A stretch of DNA of 64,000 nucleotides from Terebella lapidaria. Lineage: Eukaryota > Annelida > Polychaeta > Terebellida > Terebellidae. This document shows positions 7,037 to 50,800 of this stretch, in pieces; the stretch's first letter is position 1; each line of letters begins with the position of its first letter. Location of the stretch: contig OX424568.1 of NCBI GenBank assembly GCA_949152475.1, forward strand, positions 26,759,667-26,823,666, written 5' to 3'. The position numbers and the translations under genes are program-made. The notes under the pieces are model-generated. The model saw only the letters and a program-made list of their open reading frames with translations. It was not told the DNA's origin and ran no database searches.

Positions 7037-7058
7037 TTGTGTGTGTCAATTATATAGC

Positions 7059-7316
7059 GGTGTCTTGGAATGCTCCGGCTTGGGGGCGGTGTCTTGGGAT
7101 GCTCCGGCTTGGGGGCGGTGTCTTGGGGTTCTCCGGCTTGTGGGCAGTATCTTGAGATGCTCCGGCTTGGGGGCAGTGGGTTGGGGTGCTCTGGCTTGGA
7201 AGCGGTGTTTTGGGGTGCTCTGGCTTGCGGGTGGTGTCTTGGAATGCTCCGGTTTGGGGTTGGTGTCTTGGGGTGCTCTGGCTTGGGGATGGTGTCTTGA
7301 GATGCTCCGGCTTGGA
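7059..7316. repeat. 29-bp minisatellite, about 9 copies
   Basis: GC-rich tandem units of the form GGTGTCTTGGGATGCTCCGG plus CTTGGGGGC. Because 29 is not a multiple of 3, the array produces open frames on both strands that are artefacts of the repeat. Confidence 0.9.
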
Positions 7317-7839: not shown

Positions 7840-10800
7840 ATGGCTGCTCTGTTGAAGAAACGGGCTTTGGCTGAATTTACTCAAGTTATCCAGGTATATT
7901 ACAATAATCATCAATTGTGTTCTGTCAGTTATTATTAGCGGTACCTGTGACGAGTAAAACACATGATAAGTAATAAAATAAATAATCACTTAACCGTAAT
8001 ATCAACTGGAACCTGAGCGATAATATGTTAATTTGGGGGTACCTATAATGTCCGAATCGGACTGAAGCGAGCCTGAATGTCCGAATCGGATTGAGTCGGA
8101 CCATTTCAAGTGGGAAATGTCACGAAACGGGCCCAGTGATAAGTCGTACTCTAATAGATAGCAAATATAGACACCTACGACGTATTTACACCACCGTATG
8201 TTGAATTTGACTCAAAATGTCAAAAAAAAATATCGGAGCACATGTACAATTTAGTGGGCAATCCTGTTTCTTCATGATAGTCAATGACAATGATGAGTTA
8301 ATCAGTGGCACAAAATGATAAATACAGATAAAAGAAACATCTGGTGTGTAATAAACACTCTTCTATCATAACCAATTGTCATTCCGGTTCTTAAGCATGG
8401 GAAATTAGTTTGTAATAAAATTGCCCACATTATTGTACATCCTAGCCAAAATATCAACAAAATACTACGACGCGCCCCGCTATGAGTGATCCGCCATTGT
8501 TGTTGATGGCCACAGTTTGGTGCACAATCGTCAGATGTCACCACGTGTTCAAGCTTCAAACTATTATAGCGTAGTGACCATGCCTGTGTTCTTACCCACA
8601 TACTCTAAACCCGAAAATTAATAGCGTCTGTTTATTTACCCTTTTTTTAGCTTTTTGTATAAAACGCTAATATTAATGGACGCTAATATATTCATTTGTT
8701 AAACACAACATTTGATTGCAATTTAAAAACGCTAAATTAAACAGTCGCTAATATGCCAGGACAACCCAAAAACGCTTAATTCAACGAATGCTAATATTTC
8801 AGGGTAGTGTAACACTGCGAATTGCGAAATCGTATCTTGTTATATCCAATCTATTAGTGAATTGTGATTTGCATTACCATAGACATAGAAGAGATGGACT
8901 GCCAACTTCGGTATCACTCTCTCTGTTTCTAGTCTTTGAGCTTGAGGTCACACAAGGTCAGAGGAAGAGGGTAGTTACACTTCCGTTGTCAACATATAAC
9001 GTCATATTGCCATTGTTCATTCCTGACGATCCTCAGAGTGTTGACGTATCGTACAGTATTCGACGGATTTTTACAATCCAAATTTCCCATAAAACTTCAA
9101 ACCGGAAATAAAGTACCCAAATTTCTCTGGTCGAAAGCTCAAGGTCACTGAGGTCGAGTTGGCAGTCCATCTCTCTTCTATGTCTATGGCATTGCAGACT
9201 AAATGAATCTGAAATAATTTTCAAATAATTATTTCTAATGAAATAACACAGAAAACTGAGCTTCCTCGTATTTATCCATTTATAATACTGGCAATAGTTA
9301 CAGCATTCACATTTACAGCAGACAAATTAGTGTAATTACATCAGACATGTTACTGGGAAATAATATATAAATTATATTAATTTACATGTAACAGAATATT
9401 ATTAAAATGCAGATTGCAACATAGATTTTCATGTGGGCGAGCTGTCGGTATTCCGCCTTCGCACTATTACAGCCTGCAATGACAGGATGATTGTTGTGAC
9501 AAAGTCTGTATGGTGCTGCTGCCATGTGGTGAAGTTTTATATTAAAACCTGATCGTACATCTCGAAACGGAGTTCTTGTAGGCGCCCTTCTTGTGGCCGC
9601 AACGAAATATGAGTGGATGACAATGAATTATACATATTTACACTTGAAACTAGCTCATAAATCATGACAAAGGTCCGTTCTGAGACATTTTCACCTGCAA
9701 GTGATCCGAGTCAGTCCGCTTTGGACATTTGGGCCCGCCTCAGTCCGATTCAGATATCACAAGTAGATGAACCATTTTTTCCGTTTTTTTTGTCAGCTAC
9801 ATTACAAGTAGATGAAAGTTTTTTTCTTAACTGGTGTAGCATTAATCACAATTTCGGTTCATGTATAGGCCTATACTTGCAGTTGTAGGTGTCATATTGC
9901 ATGTATTGTGCCCCTGCTGTCCCTGGTCACCACTTTACAACATGAGCCTCTCTTGAGATTGAATCCTGCACACAGCCGTAGGGGTCTTTCATCAACATAT
10001 TTGTCTAACTCTCACCTTGGAAAGTAACTCTGTATTGTATTTTATGCATGTAGGAAGAACCAAAGCCTGTGAAGCGATTGCGTCTGACTCACGTGCCAGC
10101 CAAGCCGGAGGAACCTCCAATCAACTTGAAAGAATGTACAAGTTCAGCAGAGATCATAGACCAGTTGTTCAAGCTGGAAGGGAACCTGCCGATTTCAGCA
10201 GAAACTGCCGACATGGCCATCAATCAGATGAAGGCATATTTCCACCCGGATCAGGATGAAGATGTTCGATCGGCGATCATCTTACTACTGGGAAAACTTG
10301 GCACACTGCCAAATGTTGAGAAGACGTACATCTGTGATGACATCATGAAGTGGCTAAAATTGGAAAGTAAGTAAGATTTTGAACTTGATTGAATTTTGAC
10401 CATTGTTGAATATTATTCCATGAACCAACTTGGATTGGTTACTGATATATTCTCTTTCGTTGCAACAAAACACAAACTTGTAAAACAAATATTGGTGCAA
10501 AAGCCGAACATGACTGATCACATTATAAAACTGAATGTTGAGTGTTTTATCTTTCGCAGAATCACACAAATTGATAAGTCAGATGTTGTCTGCACTCTTG
10601 GAGATTGGGAAATCTATGTCGCATGACTCTGCCCTTCACCAGAAAGTGTTACAAGTCGCTGTCAAAGTTGGTACCTTGAATTTTGGTCTCGTATAATTGC
10701 CCAGGTTTCTCACCGGTTTTTCTAAACTGAATTAGTTCTGATAGTAAGTTTGTCGTTAAATGTTGATCAGTCATTACGGATAAACATGTATGTATTTCAT

Positions 10801-13800
10801 CAATGTCCAGCGAATAATTTGTATGTCCTTGATTTGTACACAAATTCGCAGCACCTGCAGGACTCGAGTCACGTTGTTCGATGCAAGTGTCTAGATGTGG
10901 TGGGCTGTCTGTCCACGCCGGACCGAGAAGTCCCCGGCCTGACTGACGCACTCAGAAAGTCACACACCATGCAGACAACCATAGGCAGATTCACCAGCGA
11001 TAACGACCCGCGTGTTCGCTCGAATGCCCTCAGGGTTCTTGTAAGTGAATACCGCATGTTTATCATGTACAGTAGAATATATATTGCCTGGTTGTGAATG
11101 TACTCTAAAGATCAAACTGATAAAACTTTTTAGATTGCTGGCCTGCATAGAAAAGAATGGAATATATATACTGTAGAGCTTCAAATTTTGGCGGACGATT
11201 TATTTGGCGGATTTGGCGGTAGGGGAAAAACAGCCAAATTAAATCATCTGCCATCTAGTGTAAAACATCGGAGACAGCTCACAGATCGAGTGGTTTTAAA
11301 AAACCGCCAAATTAAATCTCGGCCAAATAACGTGGGGCTCACAATCAACAAATTTAATAGCCGCCAAAATTAGTCTTTTTACAGTATATGTTCTATATTC
11401 CAGTGAAAAATACGAACATGAAAATCTTGTGACATCATGGAACACAGTCTGTGGTGAATTTTAGCAATACCGTCTCTACTGTCCATCACCGTCGCATTAT
11501 ATCAGCATATAATGCCCTTCCCTCCCACAGTTGCAGTGGCATGAGCGTGGTTTGATGATCGACAAGTCTGCGTACGGTCAGGCGTGTACCGCGCTTACAG
11601 ACGACTATGAGGGTGTGCGTGTGTGCGCCGTACAACTGATCTGGGTGCTTAGTCAACTCTACCCTGACAGGTGTGGTATACATGTAGTAGAGGTCAAAGT
11701 TGATATAACAGCCTCTAAACAAGACTCTCTGATAGTTGAAAGTGTTTGTTACTCGATTTCATTGTTGCAGACAAAGTGTACGATAAGAGAATACCGATAT
11801 ACATAATGAGTACTACCAGTAGATCTAGTCTTGGCCCAAGTACCATATCCAGTGCTTTCATTTATATTGAATGAACATTAAAAAAGTAGTATTAAGGTGC
11901 AACGTATGATACTTGGGCCAAAATCTTTGTTGCCATTAAACCTCTGTGTCGTTACTTTTCAAAATATGTCGCTACATTTCTGGAAATGTTAACATGATTA
12001 TTAACAGTAAAGTGTGGAGTTGTTTAGGAGAATTCTTCAATATTGCGCATCTTTCGAAGAAATTCTTGCGCACAGCCCCCATGTAAAAATTATCCCCTTT
12101 GTTTGCAGCCTAGTAAAAGTATCCGACATTAGCAGTGATGAAATACGGCTGACGGACGACGGATTTGCCAAGATTTGTAACATGGTCAACGACGTGTCGA
12201 TGTCTGTCAGATCTACAGCCGCCGGTCTGCTGGTCTGTGTTACACTCTTTAATCACATATATATCTAAGTGGTGAAGGCGTAGAATTCACAAACATTTGT
12301 GTTGTCGAGAATGTATAGAATTTGGGGGGGGGGGGGGGGGGGGGGTTTATGAGCATGAAATATATTGATATATGTTTCGATTTTTGTTGATTTTACACAG
12401 GGTTCCCTGCATAATGTCAGTCCACGATTTCTGGAGCAGACTTTGGACAAAAAGCTCATGTCTAATATGAGGGTATGTAAGTGAATAGTTCAAATATTCA
12501 AATAAACATTTTATCATGAGACAAATCAAGTCAATTTGGCATCAATTGGTTGTAGCGCAAGGAAAGTGCACACAAGCGACAGCGCGACCACTTTGAGAGC
12601 GGCGAGTGGTCGACTGGACAGAAGTGGGCCGACGATGCCCCTAAGGAGGACGTTGACCCAGACAGTGTCAGTGTCATGGCCAGCGGAGCCTGTGGGGCCT
12701 TTGTACATGGGCTGGAGGACGAATTTCTGGGTACAATGAAGTTCTTGTACATTTGCAGTACTACCATGTGGAAAACTAACTTCTGCAAAATATTTTGGAA
12801 AAAGTCGAGGACTAAAACTTAATGTAGTTCCAATATACTACATTAAATTAAAGTATACTAATGGCTTTTCCCTGCCTCATTCGGGCATCTGACCAGCAAA
12901 TCGATATTTCAGAGGTGCGGAATGCGGCTATTGACTCGATCTGTGAGCTGTCATCGCAGTCTCCGATGTTTTCCATCCTGTCGCAGGACTTCCTAGTTGA
13001 CATGCTGAACGACGAGATTGACTCGGTCCGTCTCAATGCCATTAACAGTCTCCGTAAGATGGGCAAACACATCATCCTGAGAGAAGACCAACTCGACAGC
13101 ATCCTTGGTGTGCTCAAGGTAACAAATTTTTGCAACTTTTTTCTCTCCGTACTTTCATACAATCACAAATTTCGTTCAGTTCGTCGCAGTATGTAAACTT
13201 TGTATGCTGAATGGAGAACCGTATTAGGTATTAAGCAGAACAAAATCAAATCACTTTCTTTAGTATACTCAATTTCTTCCCACGCTCCACCTCCGTCAAG
13301 GATTTCTCATACACAATCCGCGAAGCTTTGCGAGGGATGATCTCCAATGTTACCTTGGCGACTAAAGCTTGTATGAATACCTGCGTCCTTGCTCTACTTG
13401 ACAACCTGCGGAGATACGAAGCCGACCGGGAGTCCATATGGGGGTATGTAGGGTACATAAAAAAAATAAGGTTATGGTACATGTGTATACAGATTCAACT
13501 GTCTGTGGCATATTCATCATAGTAATTTGAGCCAATAAAAATAGGTCTTCATATTTGGGTCATCATGGGAAAAAAAAACCCTTCGATTTTCACTAGGTAG
13601 CTGTAATATTGTTCACAAACACAGTGATAAACAATAATGATAACAAATCCTAGTCTTATTCTGGCACTGAGCAAGTACACTGTCGAGTTTAACTACCAGT
13701 GTCGACAGCCAGAGTATACCAATACAAACTTCACTTCTAGCTGCATGCGACACCTCGGCTTGAACCACTCGTTCCTCGTCATGGCGATGGCCCCGGACCT

Positions 13801-16748
13801 GATGAGTTGTCACCCGTACTTCGAGTCAATTGAGCCAGAGGTTGAAGACCCAGCGTGTATCCTAACTCATAGTGATACATGTGCGACAAGTCTGGCTGGA
13901 AATTGTCGATTTTAGTAAATATACAAGTTTACATTGAGTAAAATATCCGGAGCATTATAATATTAGGTGTTTCCGTGATTGGCATATTATACCATATTGC
14001 ACCAAATGAAATGTAAGCCCAGGCTTATGGTTATTAAAAGCTATCAAAGCAGATGTACCTATCTTATGCACACCTGCCCTGTCTGTCCATGCAATGACCT
14101 TGACCTTGTCCACTAGATGTCAGTATCTTGATGCTGGTGTTTAACGCCACCAAGAATTGTCCGACGATGGCGGCCCTGTTCCCGGAACACGCAGCTCGTC
14201 ACTACCGATATCTCAATGATACGCTGCCCAGCATGGTGCCTAAACTACAGGTGAGGGCTGCGTTTACTTTTATACGTCTAGCCTGCTGATACACTGCCCA
14301 GCATAACTTTAGTATGTGTAGCCTTTTGATTCGAGAAAATGTTTTCCAGTAGATTAGACTAAACCTTTACGCAATTACACCATAGTTAGTACATAAACCC
14401 AAATCAAACCAAATTTACATGTAGTAGAAGACATACAATGCCAATGTTTTAGAAATCATTCTTTTGAGGAAGATTATGAGTCATTGATGAACCATTGATG
14501 AACAAATTTTGTCAATGTTGTTACATTGATGTTACTTGGAACCTCGCCCTGATTCCTTGACAGTTTGCCACTGACAGCTCATCATCTACATCAGTCAAAC
14601 CCAGTCTATCCAGTGGGCGAGACGCACAGACTTTCCTGTCAGAAACCCTCAAAAGACTCGAATGTTTGGACTCAATGACTACAGAATCAGCACTACAGCT
14701 TCTAAACATTTCGATCAGGTATATACCCATTATGAAAGAATTTCGTTGATACCTTGTACATTGTATTGTAAGTCAGATTTTAACATTTGATTTTGCTATG
14801 GGTAATTGAAAGGAATAGTGGAGCAGACAACTCTGATGTTTAAGTGAACTAAACCTAGACCTTTATCGTGTTTTCTCAGGGATTTACACTGCGTCCCAGA
14901 GCAAGATCCACAGCTAGCCGCCACAGCCAAGTGCCATGAACACTACATGACCTGCCAGAAAATTGTTCTCGCCGTATGTTCCCTGCATATAATAAAGCAC
15001 CATTGATGTTTGCAATCTCACATACTTAAATCCCCTCTGAATATATAAATAAATGTCTACAATATTTTTATTCTTCGGCAGCTCATTTCACACTATAGCA
15101 AAGGTGGTTCCATGCTCGTACGAGGCACTGAAGATTCTGTCACCTCCACGAACATAAAACAGGTCAGGTCTAAACCACTGACCAGTGTGAAAATCATATA
15201 TAAGATGGTGCCAGTTCTGGGGCATCTATAGACTCAAAACTTAAAGCAGCCATTGAATTTAATGTTACCATAACCTGAACTTTTCTTAGATCTACCGCCT
15301 GTCGGACGAAATGGAGCACAGTTTTCTTGGACTGGGGACAGCCGGGCGACTACAGGTTCGACAGCTACGACTGCGAGCGCACACCTTACAACTACTGCTG
15401 CAGCTACAGAGCGGGGGCACCAAGGGAGCTTGCGTGGACTTCCTACAGATACTCAACACACTACAGAGGTACAGAGGAAGTGCAAATTCTGTTCAATACA
15501 TGTATATCACCATTCATATTACCAACTGTGGCATGATTTTATGTTCGTCGTATTCTTTGCCTTTTGATGCTACGTATTTCTTATCTTCTCTCATTGGTGT
15601 TGTTAAGTGATGTGTTTGTAATGAGTATCAACTGGATTTTGTCAGTAGAACTTCAGAATCAAGGCCAGCAGTATCTAGCTTGGTACAAGATACCTTGACT
15701 GGAATTCTCTGAAAGCGAACCATTTCTTGAGTAGGTCTATCTGTAACAACTACTGATTTTATAACCCCCCCCCCCCCACAAACAGACACCTAAAGAAGGA
15801 TGGTATACCTCCCGATGACTTTTCTGCATCGCTTCTCTCCGAGATGTCTCGCCTGGAATCATGTGAATTGCCGACGTTTCTCCCCATTTTGGAAGCATCC
15901 CTCTCCCACCACAAGCCGAGCGTGCTCTCCCTGTCTGGCTCAGTACAGCACGCCCACGGCACGATCCTACAGCCCACTGGGACGTCCGACATGGCCCTAC
16001 AGTTTATTGCTGGTCTCACAATGGGGATTGACGTTGTTGCCAACATGGAGAATGTGGAATGTGTCCAGGACGTCTGCATTCGGGTACGTTTGGTTCAGTG
16101 ACAAATTTTCTTGTCAAAATACTGCCGGTGGTTTCATGCATTTCTTTCTAACATTCTTATTTACGTAGATACTTAAGCCAGTTTTGGTGGACTTTTGTCT
16201 TGTATAAAGAACGTTAAGAAGCCACAACTACACGAATCACCACAGTCGTTTGCAATAAGTTGTACCAGTATTTATTTATATCCCAAGAAGTCATTTTATG
16301 TTCACTTTTGTTCCGATAAAAGGTGAGCTACCCTGATCAGAAGTGTCAATATACGACGCCCAAACCTGTCGACATCCAACAGCTCGGCCCGCTCAAACAC
16401 AAACTGTCATCTAGTGTGCTCATCTCCCACTCAAAGTGGTCAGGTAAAGAGATTGATATTGGCTGTTCATGATTAACCTGACTAATTCAAACTCGAATCG
16501 CCGCAATGTTTGCCTTTGATGTAAAAATGTTATAAAAATAAGACCGAATGTAAGATATGATTTTAGAATTTGTGCTTCCAGATTCTTCTCCGATTGAGAT
16601 CTGCCTCGTTCTTCGCTACAAAGTTGGTCACATGATACGAACATCAACTGATTCGGCATCCACATCCTCGTCCAATAAAACCTACAACTACATTGAACTA
16701 TCCGATTCGGTTAAAATTCTTGTGCAGCCCATTGGTGAAAAACGATGA
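7840..16748 (+). CDS. INTS4: Integrator complex subunit 4
   Basis: INTS4 is the HEAT-repeat scaffold that, with INTS9 and INTS11, forms the Integrator RNA cleavage module in the nucleus. I traced 19 coding exons, all phase-consistent: 7840-7893, 10054-10366, 10560-10666, 10852-11040, 11531-11670, 12109-12232, 12401-12472, 12556-12730, 12913-13118, 13301-13443, 13741-13856, 14117-14250, 14564-14718, 14880-14973, 15082-15162, 15290-15468, 15786-16083, 16323-16443, 16582-16748. Total 2868 nt, 955 aa, against about 963 in human. Recognised segments include MAALLKKRALAEFTQVIQ at the start, a KSHKLISQMLSALLEIG block, QLIWVLSQLYP, LEQTLDKKLMSNMR, CGAFVHGLEDEF and RLNAINSLRKMG, followed by a beta-rich C-terminal part. 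Start chosen from family similarity and a good context (ACAATGG). No sign of damage. Confidence 0.97.
8877..9189. mobile_element. Palindromic MITE in INTS4 intron 1
   Basis: Ends are inverted repeats: CCATAGACATAGAAGAGATG at the left and the reverse complement CTCTTCTATGTCTATGG at the right, extending about 40 bp inward (GGACTGCCAACT shared). About 313 bp, no coding capacity. The target duplication is unclear (GCATT-like bases on both sides, offset by one). Confidence 0.75.
11168..11387. mobile_element. Short inverted-repeat element in INTS4 intron 4
   Basis: Starts ATACTGTAGAGCTTCAAATT then TTGGCGG and ends with CCGCCAAAATTAGTCTTTTT then ACAGTAT; these are imperfect inverted repeats. Internal sequence is rich in TTTGGCGG words in both directions. 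About 220 bp and non-coding. Confidence 0.7.
12326..12346. repeat. Poly-G run in INTS4 intron 6
   Basis: About 20 uninterrupted G. Comparable poly-C or poly-G runs occur near 1298, 7474, 15767, 21563, 22931, 30050, 30108, 52266 and 62081. They are prone to sequencing error. Confidence 0.9.
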
Positions 16749-17156: not shown

Positions 17157-20100
17157 TCAGGACTTGGCAACCACTGGGTTGGACATTCGGAATATAGAGG
17201 GCAGCATCGCACTGATCGCAGAGAATGTTTCGTCTGAAAGACCCTGTTAAAACAACAAAAATATCCCCTATATTGCTTAAATCAAGATTATTAGAACATG
17301 ATAGAGTGAATGACCACATAACACTATAGGATTGATGGGCAAATATCAAAGAGGTTTTAAGATTTTCGAAATGCAAAAATTCAGGAAAAATTCACCTGTG
17401 GGACAACAAACTGGATTGTCATCGATTCTTGGCTACTCCAAGTCGCGAACTCCATTACAAATCCCTTGACACACTTGAAAATTAACTCCGCACGCTTCAT
17501 GCACCAGCTAATTGTCATTTCCTGCGACAGAAAACAAAGACATGAAGACCTGCAACACTATTTTCAGAAGATTTTGTGTGTAAAGAAATGATGAGACAAT
17601 AATACTTGATAATTTTGAACCAACAGAAATACATGAAATTTACTGCAAAAATCAGTGTCAGGTAGACTTTTACCCCATCCTGCACCCCCACAGTCAACTG
17701 TTACCATGACAACCTACCTCAGACATGTCGTGCACCAGCAGTAGCGGGAGTATGACGGAGCGGATGTCGTACCGGTAACAGGCACGGAGGACGTTTCGAT
17801 AGCCGAGGATGACCGGGTGTCTGGATGAGATGTCGGCCTGCGGCGTGCGCACGCTGCCATCGCTAACCAGGTGGAACACGTTGTGAACTTCAGCGAGATT
17901 CGAGTGGCGCGTAATGTAAAAGTCTCCAGGCTGCATCTTTATGCTGCGCTCCTCCCGCTAGAGCAACGTCAAGGTCGTTAAGTGAGACGCCAATAATGAA
18001 TGCAGAGGCAGAGTTTCATCTGTGCTGTATTGGTCTATTTTATCAGCTGTGATTTATCAAACATTCAAAATTAATTTGAAATTGAAATTATAAGGTCAGC
18101 AAAGAGAATCTTGCCCACACTCACATCACTAGACCCGCTGGCATTACTACGGAGACTGACGCGGTCGCTGCCGAGACTTTTAACGCTGCCACGATCTCCT
18201 TCGTCAGCAGCCTTGCGCTGGGCACGCCACTCGTTAGCCCTGAGAACCGCCTCCTCCACCACCTCGAGCTGGTCCGCCAGACACCGGAAGTGGAACTCGG
18301 TAGCCCTCTCGCATGTCCGCGCAAACTCTGAAAACATTGGGGTGAGAGATGGTGCCCCTATTAGTCATGTCCTACTTCTCTCACCTTATGCCCTAACTTG
18401 CCTCGCTCTATGCCCTAACTGGCCTCACTCTATGCCCTGACTTGTCTCGCTCTATGCCCTGACTTGCCTCGCTCTATACCCTGACTTGCCTCACTCTATG
18501 CCCTGACTTGCCTCACTCCATGCCCTGACTTGCCTCGCTCTACGCCCTGACTTGCCTCACTCTATGCCCTGACTTGCCTCACTCTATACCCTGACTTGAC
18601 TCACTCTATGCCCTAACTGGCCTCACTCTATGCCCTGACTTGCCTCGCTCTATGCCTGACTTGTCTCGCTCTATGCCCTGACTTGCCTCGCTCTATGCCC
18701 TGACTTGTCTCGCTCTATGCCCTGACTTGCCTCACTCTATGCCCTGACTTGCCTTGCTCTATGCCCTGACTTGCCCCCACTCTATGCCATGACTTGCCTC
18801 GTTTTATGCCGCTGTAGGAGTTGAGTCTGTCGTCTACGATGAGCACAAGTCCGCAGAGTTTTGTGGAGTAGAGGGCGAGCGCGGTCTGTAGACGCTGGGG
18901 CTGCGGCAGCAACATGCCCCTGTCAAATCAACAACAAATAAACTATTTATAACTATTAATACAGTTTGAGTACAACAATGACCAAGTGCCTGTTGACATA
19001 CCCCTCATTCACAGCTGGTTTGTGGCGACACAGCTGCAGGATATCTGCACTGACAAGACGCAGGTTGTGCATCGTCTTCATCTGTGCACCTGAGGGTTCA
19101 TCAGAATATTTGTGGTATGCAGTAATGTGTTTGCAGTGCTATATAATATGATACGATTACAGAGGGTAACCTCCTAGAAAAAGTACAAGTCGTGGTTATG
19201 CTTAAATGTTCAGTTTCTTTGTTGGGTGGGGTCCTGGTTGCCTGTCTTTTTTGCTGTTCCAAACAGTCGCAGTTATTGTGAATATCCTGTAAATCATGAT
19301 TTGAACCCAAACATTGTTCAAAACTTTGATGTTGGCTTTTTTCAAACTATTTCGAAGACCACATGGCTGCCTCACCGAGGTGAACTGTGAAGCTTTCCTC
19401 CTTTCTAACGGCTGGGACAGTGTCGTCTTTCCAGGGTTTTTCCTTCGTGCTTTTGTTGGACAGCGAGTTCACATGATGTCTGTAACCATGGTAATATGTG
19501 TCAAGTATTTTCGTAAATTTCTACAGCGCGCATTTTCAGCATGCTTCAGTACATCTTTCAAATTCTGACCGAGCTCTAAAACTTCTTTTGTATAAACAAA
19601 TGTTAGCACATGAGTTCATACACAAGTTTCCAATAACAATTATTTTAGTGTCCATTTTGACTGACACATAGGCAGGGGTGGTGTTGGTCAGTTGCGTATC
19701 TTGATGTAGGTTCATCACCCAGTGTTGGAACTCTCTCTTCTGTGTCTGCTGGAGGTTGGAAAGTTCACTCGCCCACTTGCTCTCGATCATCTGGGGGAAA
19801 ACAAATTATTGGCAAAAATATATGCGAATAAATCATTCTATTAATTTAATAGCAAAACAAAAAATTAATTGTTTTTCTGTAATATCAGAGTTAACGAGAT
19901 AACTATTACTACCAGTACTGTCAGTACAATTTCATTTCATAAATGTGACTCTATTTAGTTTGCAACTTTGCGCTTTTGTTTTCATTACATGTAAATGACT
20001 TACAAAGTTTTCTTTAAATACTCTGTAAAACCATTTTTTATTCTCCATTTTCTTTTTTCTTACCTGTATATTTTCGAAGTGCCTCTGGGCCATCTGGTTG

Positions 20101-29689: not shown

Positions 29690-30030
29690 TGAAAAGAAAA
29701 TGCTACTTGTGCTACTAAGGCCATCCATAATAACCATTAGACATGTTTGTCTAATGACATGACTCCGAAAATAATGTCCGTTTCGCTGTACTATGCACTG
29801 TTTCTGAGATACCGATGAAAACAAAAAATGCTGATTCAGCGAAAAAATTTAAGGTCAAGGTCAAAGGTCATCCCAAATGCCCTAAAGACATGTTTGTCTA
29901 GGGCCACGAGTCCGAAAAATAACGTCCGTTTCACTCTACGACGCACCGTTTCTGAGATATCGAAGAAAACGAAAAATGCTGACTCAGTGAAAAAATTTAA
30001 GGTCAAGGTCAAAGGTCATCTCCATAATAC
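29690..30030 (-). repeat. Two units of a 147-bp satellite family
   Basis: Reverse-complement relatives of the array at 48140-49515: shared words GACATGTTTGTCTA, CCGAAAATAA-GTCCGTTTC and GAGATA-CGA-GAAAAC. The GACATGTTTGTCTA word recurs 147 bp apart (about 29741 and 29888), the same period as the large array. Followed by two poly-C runs. Confidence 0.85.
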
Positions 30031-30197
30031 CCCTTAAACATGTTTAATACCCCCCCCCCCCCCCCGGTAATGTTGAAACTGAAAGTGTGACCCCGAGTTT
30101 TTACACCCCCCCCCCCCCCCCCCCCAGAGAGTTGCCGTTCGACTCTCATATAAAATTACATTAGTCAAGTTATACTTTTCACTGTCACTGCGGGCAA

Positions 30198-31019
30198 TAC
30201 GGTGGCTGATAAACGACATGGTTAAATTGTTTTTTGGGAATTAAATCCAACCTGGTAGCAGTGGAGCTAACTACCTGGAGAAAATGTCTACATCAGTGGA
30301 GGAAAGGTTAAATCCGGGGAGGAAAGGTTAAATCCAGGGAGGAAAGTTTAAATCCACAGAGGAAAGGTTAAATCCGTGGAGGAAAGGTTGAATCCACGGA
30401 GAAAAGGTTAAATCCGAGGAGGAAAGGTTAAATCCGCGGAGGAAAGGTTAAATCCACGAAGGAAATGTTAAATCCGCAGAGGAAAGGTTAAATCCGCGGA
30501 GAAAAGATTAAATCCGCGGAGGAAAGGTTAAATCCGCGGAGAAAAGGTTAAATCCGCGGAGGAAAGGTTAAATCCGCGGAGGAAAGGTTAAATCCGCGGA
30601 GGAGAGGTTAAATCCGCGGAGGAAAGGTTAAATCCGCGGAGGAAAGGTTGAATCCACGAAAGAAAGGTTATATTCGGTCTACAGCTACATGTGAGGTACT
30701 ATACCTCGAAAGCCACAAATAACCATAACAATTTCTTGGTGTGTATATCCCAACTGGAGATACATATTAATGAAATCGTCACGAGCACCGCGCTGTTGGA
30801 AGTCAGCCATCATGATGTGGAATCGTATGAATGAAATTGGTTAGATCCTTTGTTGTATTATGTGCATTATTCTTTCCTGTGTGTATTTAACCTTTCCTCC
30901 CCGGATTTAACCTTTCCTCCGTTGATGTAGACATTTTCTCCAGGTAGTTAGCTCCACTTCTACCAGCGTGGATTTAATTCCCCAAAACAATTTAACCATG
31001 TCGTTTATCAGCCACCGTA
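30198..31019. mobile_element. Foldback element with internal minisatellite
   Basis: Inverted repeats of at least 120 bp start TACGGTGGCTGATAAACGAC at both ends and include CTAACTACCTGGAGAAAATG. A 6-bp duplication GGGCAA flanks it (30192-30197 and 31020-31025). Inside, starting within the left repeat, is a 20-bp minisatellite (GGAAAGGTTAAATCCGCGGA, about 19 copies, 30296-30665); the right arm carries only two or three inverse units. 822 bp, non-coding. Superfamily not determined. Confidence 0.9.
30296..30665. repeat. 20-bp minisatellite, about 19 copies
   Basis: Tandem GGAAAGGTTAAATCCGCGGA, most variable at the GCGG positions. The same units are part of the element's inverted repeat, so the array has expanded from one arm. 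Confidence 0.92.
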
Positions 31020-47834: not shown

Positions 47835-50800
47835 CTTCTTCCGCCACTTTTGGTTTCCGGACGATAACTTTAGATTGCCTTGACGGATCCTTGTCAAATT
47901 TTCACCACAAGTCAGAAATGATATGTGGAAGAACCCTATTCTTTTTGAGCCGGATCCGAGGTCCGTGAGGTCCGTGAGGATGAAATCAAGGCTAATTTTG
48001 AGACTTGGTTTCCGGACGATAACTGGAAAAATATTTATGCAATAGTTGCAGAACTCTGCATGGAGGTTCATATGCCACCAGGGAAGAACCCTATTGATTT
48101 TGGGATCGATCCGTCAAACGACCTTTGACCTAGAGGTCAAAATAATTTTTTGCTGATTCATCCTTGAGGCTTCCTGCATATCTCAGAAACCGTGCATCGT
48201 AGAGCGAAACGGACGTTATTTTCGGACTCGTCACCCTAGACAAACATCTCTAGGGTGTATTTTTTTTTTGATCCGGCTCCGAGGTCCGTGAGGTCCGTGA
48301 GGATGAAATCGAGGAACTTGGTTTCCGGACGATAACTCAAAAAATATTCAGGCAAAAGTTGCAGAATTTTGCACGGAGGTTTATATATCACCAGGGAAGA
48401 ACCCTATTGATTTTGGGATCGATACCTCAAACGACCTTTGACCTAGAGGTCGAAATAATTTTTTGCTGAGTCATCCTTGAGGCATCCTGCATATCTCGGA
48501 AACGGTGCGTCGTAGAGCGAAACGGACGTTATTTTCGGACTCGTCGCCCTAGACAAATATGTCTAAGGGGTATTATGGATGAACTTTGACCTTGACCCAA
48601 ATTTTTTTTGCCGAATCGGCATTTTTCGTTTTCGTCGATATCTCGGAAACGGTGCGTCCTAGAGCGAAACGGACGTTATTTTCGGACTCGTCGCACTAGA
48701 CAAACATGTCTAAGGGGTATTATGGATGAACTTTGACCTTGACCCGAAATTTTTTTGCCGAGTCGGCATTTTTCGTTTTCGTCGATATCTCGGAAACGGT
48801 GCGTCGTAGAGCGAAACGGACGTTATATTCGGACTCGTCGCACTAGACAAACATGTCTAAGGGGTATTCTGGATGAACTTTGACCTTGACCCGAAATTTT
48901 TTTCCCGAGTCGACATTTTTCGTTTTCGTCGATATCTCGGAAACGGTGCGTCGTAGAGCGAAACGGACGTTATTTTCGGACTCGTCACACTAGACAAACA
49001 TGTCTATGGGGAATTATTGATGAACTTTGACCTTGACCCGAAATTTTTTTGCCGAGTCGGCATTTTTCGTTTTCGTCGATATCTCGGAAACGGTGCGTCG
49101 TAGAGCGAAACGGACGTTATTTTCGGACTCGTCGCACTAGACAAACATGTCTATGGGGAATTATTGATGAACTTTGACCTTGACCCGAAATTTTTTTGCC
49201 GAGTCGCCATTTTTCGTTTTCGTCGATATCTCGGAAACGCTGCGTCGTAGAGCGAAACGGAGGTTATTTTCGGACTCATCACCCTAGACAAACATGTCTA
49301 AGGGGTATTATGGATTAACTTTGACCTTGACCCGAAATTTTTTTGCCGAGTCGGCAGTTTTTGTTTTCGTCGATATCTCGGAAACGGTGCGTCGTAGAGC
49401 GAAACGGACGTTATTTTCGGACTCATCACCCTAGACAAACATGTCTAAGGGGTATTATGGATTAACTTTGACCTTGACCCGAAATTTGTCGACATTTTTC
49501 ATTTTCGTCGATATCTAGTATTATAAATTATTCATCACACCGAAATGCCTCCAAGGCATCTTTAGGCCTTGACGTCTAGTTTTTCATAGTATGTGCTGTC
49601 CGTGAACACATCACTGCTGAATACATTGACATTTATAGTTTTGCAGATGGCTAATTGTTTGAGCTTTGTATTATACTGTAAAACATGATGAATTTATTAT
49701 GCGTGATAATCTGATAGATTATGGTGATTACAATATTCCTCACAGAATCCGAGCGATGCAGATGATACTATTGAGACCAGTGGTGCTAAAGCTGACGTGA
49801 ATTGCGATGTCGTGGAACGACTCAACAAGTTAACTGCCGATGAACTCAGATGCATGAATTCTGTGAAGGGAGATGACATCCACATCATACACGTGGCTAA
49901 CCTACGACGACAGAGGGAAGACAATGGTTTATTGGAGCATCTCAGGAAACTCGTGGAGTGCACGTCAGTTGATCCTAAGCTTCGTCACTACACTGCTAAG
50001 CAAGTCGCTGTTCTTGTTGATCGAGAAGACTCAGAATCTACTCAGCGTGAAGTGGAGATGTTTGTGCAACTATTCAAGAGATTCTGGCCTGAGAGCAATG
50101 TTCATAATGCAGATGTATTCCCTATCGAAGGATTGATCGTTGACTCACTCAAAAACTTCTCTGGACTGGAATCGAGAGTTGTTATCATCGTAGAACCGGC
50201 AGAGATGTCCAGTCCGAATGATCACCGAAACATCAAACGTCTAATAGCAAAAGCATCCAGAGGTGTTGAAAGAGTGGATTTTCTACATGAAAAGAACTTG
50301 GATGGCAGCACTGTTGCTGCCATGAAATGTGACACTGTGCCGCAGGATCTAATGTGAGTATTGTGTGATTTTGTTGTCTGAAAACAGAAGTATTACAATA
50401 ATTTACCAAGTAATGGGGGCGAATAAAAATTGTGTCTCAGCTGGAGATCATATTTTCAGGAAGAAAAAGACATTCGACGATGCAGAAATCAGGGTACGTA
50501 GGCTACAAGATAATTTTTCATAGTATGTGCTGTCCGTGAACACATCACTGCTGAATACATTGACATTTATAGTTTTGCAGATGGCTAATTGTTTGAGCTT
50601 TGTATTATACTGTAAAACATGATGAATTTATTATGCGTGATAATCTGATAGATTATGGTGATTACAATATTCCTCACAGAATCCGAGCGATGCAGATGAT
50701 ACTATTGAGACCAGTGGTGCTAAAGCTGACGTGAATTGCGATGTCGTCAAAACTGGTGTTGTTGAAGCCATAGGTGCTAGCGCAAGTGATTCCAGCATTA

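Follow-up and report, generated by a model that had tools for sequence, protein, structure and literature searches.

A 22-bp minisatellite probably seeded at the GC splice donor of FERRY3 exon 8 in Terebella lapidaria

How a splice donor comes to be selected when it is the first of many equal ones, and whether arrays of such donors are favoured by GC donors, are the questions raised by a stretch of 64,000 nucleotides from the polychaete Terebella lapidaria (GenBank assembly GCA_949152475.1, contig OX424568.1, positions 26,759,667 to 26,823,666 of the forward strand; this whole stretch is called the window below). On its minus strand lies the gene FERRY3, in which the end of coding exon 8, a GC donor and the beginning of intron 8 together form one unit of a 22-bp minisatellite that continues through most of the intron. 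We consider it probable that this minisatellite was seeded at the splice donor of exon 8 and expanded into the intron, and that its inner copies are mostly decoys. All FERRY3 features are given in window positions and lie on the minus strand; a slash marks the border between exon and intron.

The gene was named from a profile match: exons 7-12, joined by eye, match the Pfam family Fy-3 (PF10154) at 383.7 bits (curated cut-off 25.8), and Fy-3 is subunit 3 of the FERRY complex. Exon 8 (18919 to 18798, 122 nt) encodes GMLLPQ...LNSYSGIKR and ends with GAG, and the first base of the intron is 18797, such that the donor reads GAG/GCAAGT, as an earlier note on this DNA had stated. Intron 8 (18328-18797) is of the GC-AG type and 470 nt long; exon 9 (18125-18327) starts with AGTTTGCGCGG after TTTTCAG, and about 35 nt upstream of this acceptor the branch-point-like sequence TGACTAAT (18360-18367) can be read. 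GT is present at all eight other FERRY3 donors that were placed, a set in which coding exons 5 and 6 and the last exon are not represented with their ends.

Tandem Repeats Finder reports the array at 18380-18800, with a period of 22 bp, 19.1 copies and 89% matches. With unit boundaries set by cutting the sequence at GGCAT-like starts, unit 0 (18789-18810) consists of the last 13 bases of the exon and the first 9 bases of the intron (GGCATAAAACGAG/GCAAGTCAT) and shares 19 of its 22 bases with the array consensus; 19 further units follow in the intron (units 1-19, about 18373-18788), so that both the boundary-spanning unit and the 19 repeats claimed before are borne out. The consensus was built from those 16 inner units that are exactly 22 bp long, leaving out unit 1 (23 bp), unit 6 (21 bp) and the diverged unit 19 (cut at 20 nt). 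This terminal unit is the most diverged one and lacks the GC donor, carrying instead a GT donor, AAG/GTGAGA (18379-18387). The motif GAGGCAAGT occurs exactly eleven times; this count had been given correctly before, but not all of these copies lie downstream, ten being in intron units and one in the exonic unit. Near copies of the exonic donor stand at +23 (GGG/GCAAGT) and +45 (AAG/GCAAGT). Aligned locally with the array that follows it, the end of exon 8 scores 32, the alignment starting 13 bases inside the exon, whereas the eight other FERRY3 exon ends score 15-19 in the same test, which supports the earlier proposal that the array grew from this GC donor.

Such a likeness could also have arisen by chance, if a dispersed repeat had landed in the FERRY3 intron. 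Dispersed minisatellites do occur in this genome (e.g., a 20-bp family on C1, C5, and C6), and a 35-bp array at C3:51295865-51296729 has GGCATAGAG, GCAAGTCA, and GGGCAT in the same order as the FERRY3 unit, the exact pattern, which was devised after the likeness had been noticed, being found at these two places only. The C3 array itself, however, starts in an exon of an SLC28-type transporter gene, and the exon bases of the FERRY3 unit code for residues that fit the Fy-3 profile. Furthermore, the 22-bp unit is confined to FERRY3: with up to two mismatches it has 16 occurrences in the 761-Mb genome, all of them in this array, and its backwards control has no match in the same 761 Mb. Used as a DNA query, the array matches only itself; this search skips common words and missed the likeness on C3, so that rarity is not proven by it. 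Altogether, we regard the landing of a dispersed repeat as very unlikely. Very unlikely too, in our view, is an assembly artefact, i.e., an array whose units the assembler lost, multiplied or made up: tandem arrays readily give rise to such errors and a single haplotype is represented, but the units differ irregularly, two of them are length variants, and the ends are diverged, as in real minisatellites. The copy number of the array is nevertheless in doubt.

Concerning the direction of growth, the protein family is informative. Exons 7 and 8 match positions 240-302 of Fy-3 and exons 9-12 match positions 303-497, such that there is no gap at the junction. This join is supportive and not proof, alignment limits at query ends being partly forced; the loss of bits upon extension is firmer, as the peptide extended by the 15 amino acids up to the donor at +45 scores 124.4 bits versus 138.8 bits without extension (about 14 bits lost). 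In an alanine scan in and near SYSGIKREF, nine of ten changes lower the Fy-3 score by 0.7-6.0 bits (mostly by 1-2), and the remaining one, at a site immediately beyond the motif, causes a gain of 0.1 bits; the motif thus appears mildly conserved. The whole-genome search with Fy-3 yielded seven exon-sized matches, all within the FERRY3 locus, and revealed neither a second copy nor a retrocopy in spliced form. A search for a solved FERRY3 structure for alignment gave no real match, the sole weak one (E 0.5) being unrelated. Pfam hence supports the exonic donor as the ancestral junction, and since the end of exon 8 is old coding sequence, it is most likely that the array copied the junction, and not the reverse. 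As no unit of the array has GT at the position corresponding to the GC donor, the array is most simply read as having begun at a donor that was GC from the outset.

The course of events may then have been as follows. A tandem duplication across the junction of exon 8 and intron 8, with a GC donor already in place, would have been followed by expansion on the intron side. The exon end and its donor would be present in every copy, and because splicing at the exonic donor would still yield a normal mRNA, growth into the intron would have been tolerated. Most of the inner copies would be decoy donors under little or no selection, with the exonic donor as the main site in RNA. Minority splicing at +23, +45, or +67 is conceivable, and longer forms would be truncated and probably cleared by nonsense-mediated decay.

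Nothing in the sequence suggests that the inner copies are kept for a purpose. Among the 16 inner 22-bp units, changes from the consensus number 6 in the 144 sites of the donor core and 15 in the 208 sites outside it (p=0.26), eight of these 15 falling on a single C/T site. Extra conservation of the inner donor cores is therefore rejected, and cores that are not significantly more conserved than their surroundings are decoy-like. Concealment of the inner donors by RNA structure was considered as well and is likewise rejected: the predicted fold of the array RNA is not more stable than that of shuffled sequences (z -0.27), and the mean unpaired probability is 0.58 for the exonic donor, 0.46-0.57 for nine of the ten exact inner copies and 0.03 for the remaining one.

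The inner donors had been expected to add multiples of 22 bases, and the exonic donor to be the only one that keeps the frame into exon 9; neither expectation held. The early donors are offset by +23, +45, +67, and +111, owing to unit 1 with 23 bp, by which the offsets are 22n+1 at first, and unit 6 with 21 bp. An open frame into exon 9 is kept by two of 14 candidate donors, i.e., by the exonic one and by that at +45 (18747-18755), which is in frame, stop-free and would add 15 amino acids; the donors at +23 and +67 would cause a frameshift. On reading from the exon on into the array, the first in-frame stop is a TAG at 18715-18717 (intron bases 81-83), beyond which all ten candidate donors from +111 onward are situated, so that the frame is irrelevant for these. 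The predicted energy of pairing with the U1 5' end is the same, -6.0 kcal/mol, at the exonic donor and at each of the ten exact inner copies, in support of a ladder of near-equivalent donors as proposed in the earlier note.

Equal predicted energies and an open path from +45 are also what would be expected if the inner donors acted as regulated alternative 5' splice sites, with +45 giving a protein longer by 15 amino acids and the others reducing FERRY3 output via premature stops. Two downstream units of the minisatellite in human IFI6 (6-16) serve as donors, resulting in three mRNAs (PMC4526556), and human GC-AG introns are preferentially involved in alternative 5' splice site events (PMC7242645). 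On the other hand, significant excess conservation of the donor core is lacking, the unit length is not divisible by three, every product from +111 onward meets the same TAG, and the amphioxus minisatellites known as mirages leave regular splicing undisturbed (PMC3087553, PMC3902484). Regulated use of the inner donors is thus possible, but we consider it rather unlikely.

Some results nonetheless weigh against growth from the exon 8 donor with the inner copies as decoys. The continuity of the Pfam family marks the ancestral junction, and not present-day donor use. Moreover, among the nine FERRY3 donors for which pairing with U1 was computed, the exonic GC donor is predicted to pair most weakly (the eight others range from -6.5 to -11.0 kcal/mol); it is also predicted to be no stronger than its inner copies, and two sites within the intron pair better: AGA/GTGAGT at +193 (-6.5 kcal/mol) and, with the strongest predicted pairing in the intron, the above-mentioned AAG/GTGAGA of unit 19 at +413 (-9.6 kcal/mol). 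Having ten equals and two better rivals, the exonic donor, if it is used, would not be selected by donor sequence alone; its place along the nascent transcript and exon definition would be the natural deciders.

By its anatomy, the FERRY3 array belongs to a known kind, the minisatellite that spans an exon-intron boundary. Among the mirages of amphioxus, those of Adh3, troponin C, globins, and PGBD5 are named in PMC3087553 and PMC3902484, with units of 10-72 bp in Adh3; mirage lengths are described as unstable, and the units are reported to contain AG/GT signals (both in PMC3087553). Two marks of a mirage are found in FERRY3, where unit 0 spans the boundary with its 13 exon and 9 intron bases and many units contain a splice signal (GCAAGT in 12 of 19 intron units). 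The boundary-spanning minisatellite is thus common to both systems, whereas AG/GT signals there contrast with a GC donor here, and the GC donor is the unusual part of the FERRY3 case. The GFP family, which lancelets carry, and the molluscan haemocyanin domain had no match in the T. lapidaria genome, nor did either of them match in any control genome. As in IFI6, the minisatellite offers multiple donors, those of FERRY3 being predicted. The human IFI6 minisatellite, reportedly treated by Turri et al. in 1995, is reported to have frame-preserving units of 12 bp with GT donors, in contrast to the frame-shifting 22-bp unit with a GC donor in FERRY3. Furthermore, GC-AG introns are strongly overrepresented among recent introns in repeat-associated segments, as stated in PMC7242645, citing Zhuo et al. 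2007; arrays are tied to splice sites in tandem-array-derived human introns as well as in FERRY3. Zhuo et al., as cited there, are concerned with the gain of new introns. In FERRY3, by contrast, the match to the protein family runs across the junction without interruption, and an origin of the intron from the array need not be assumed.

A rarity of such arrays, as could be gathered from the earlier note, is not supported, cases being published for amphioxus and human, and eight other array families with an exon end being found in T. lapidaria. The genome was searched for places where the word AGGCAAGT or AGGTAAGT is repeated three times at short distances, and families were taken from the matches listed, in which later contigs are under-sampled and FERRY3 itself is not included. 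At least 16 array families (own grouping) are present among these matches, 13 of which were assessed, leaving out C3:37839938, C4:1094579 (start not reached), and C6:9021076 (simple repeat). In eight of the 13 the unit includes the exon end, and in five of these the exon has a database match. The SLC28-type transporter (Pfam, PDB) has 24 exon bases in the unit, with 33 of 33 aligned sites identical; its exon ends with GAG/GCAAGT, seeding the 35-bp array of 25 copies (C3:51295850-51296735). A MORC2-like gene (C2:364115; PDB, Pfam) and a SEC14L2-like gene (C2:10386437; PDB, alignment) have 10 and 37 exon bases in the unit, respectively, and a discoidin-like lectin (C3:25670135, first of three copies) matches Pfam below the cut-off. 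Ly6-like genes (C3:33.11-33.15 Mb; Pfam) were read in three paralogues, with one exon scanned. All three possess a 30-bp array at an exon end of CAG/GCAAGT; this unit keeps the frame, and splicing at the first inner donors would lengthen the protein by ten residues per unit, up to a unit that bears a stop.

The remaining three families with the exon end in the unit belong to open frames without a database name, at C2:52234586, C3:1739616 (alignment score 29), and C3:2012562. In the first of these regions (C2:52234000-52234600), in-frame 57-bp units start where an open exon-like frame ends (GAGMSPQLGLHSSLG/GTAAGT), and the repeat reaches about 51 bases into this frame. A TPR identity for the C3:1739616 exon was considered and is discarded, there being no match in Pfam or PDB. 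Two further families are borderline: the carboxylesterase gene at C2:53959822 was rejected as a clear case, as its exon end scores 17, which equals background (its unit recurs at C2:53966361, with no exon in view there), and at C7:38404550 (score 30) just 6 exon bases are included. As any donor beside donor words shares about 8 bases with them, C3:1739616 and the C7 array are the weakest cases of the alignment test. By eye, in about 300 upstream bases, no exon end was seen at C1:42397768, at C2:55458829, and in the dispersed 20-bp family (two of four places read). The unit of this latter family, which is found on C1, C5, and C6 (including C5:9000282 and C6:37864600), is AGGCAAGTGTTTCCAAAGTA; near-identical upstream flanks of the two copies read suggest that it travels inside a larger repeat.

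Whether donors are preferred as starting points depends on how often the search words are donors anyway. The presence of AGGTAAGT arrays at exon ends is hardly informative on preference, because a large fraction of such words are real donors. Real donors are roughly estimated, from base composition and intron numbers, at a few per cent of the AGGCAAGT occurrences; among the matches listed, three of six AGGCAAGT families other than FERRY3 are at exon ends, two of them with GC at the exon itself. The triple AGGCAAGT pattern occurs at 122 places versus 6 for its backwards control, and the triple AGGTAAGT pattern at 182 versus 157 places (290 versus 177 with wider spacing), these ratios being suggestive at most since places within one array are not independent. 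To the counter-evidence must be added that the survey was itself drawn with donor words, a large share of exon ends for AGGTAAGT being expected in any case, and that the control survey is thin: the flanks of one control-word array (on C8) were read, in which no exon was recognised by eye, one frame being open across 200 bases on one side. It is therefore as a doubtful conjecture that we suggest that splice donors may be recurrent birthplaces of minisatellites in this genome, and that GC donors may be over-represented among the surviving arrays since weak GC decoys would compete poorly with the exonic site, so that long arrays would be tolerated.

Elsewhere in the window, a plus-strand gene at 9869-16200, presumably INTS4-like, is situated tail to tail with FERRY3. 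Other minisatellites are found at 30298-30670 (20 bp, 18.6 copies) and at 7057-7315 (29 bp, 8.9 copies), and a 147-bp satellite with 6.8 copies and 95% matches at 48491-49487. Sequence resembling this satellite by eye is present in reverse orientation at 29724-30045 and beyond the carboxylesterase array, so that it is probably a dispersed family.

Intron 8 of FERRY3 resembles a natural minigene construct: a non-canonical donor is repeated in it ten times exactly and twice nearly so, and its distal part holds a GT donor for which stronger pairing is predicted. Should the first donor dominate, position or first-come commitment must decide, and not the donor sequence. If donors are indeed birthplaces of minisatellites and GC donors are favoured, FERRY3 would be a natural test of how the spliceosome chooses the first of about a dozen near-identical donors. 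With several such arrays in the genome (among others in the SLC28-, MORC2-, and SEC14L2-like genes), donor choice could be compared across genes. The arrangement also points to a simple rule for the harmless growth of minisatellites: the exon end stays intact when a duplication spans a donor.
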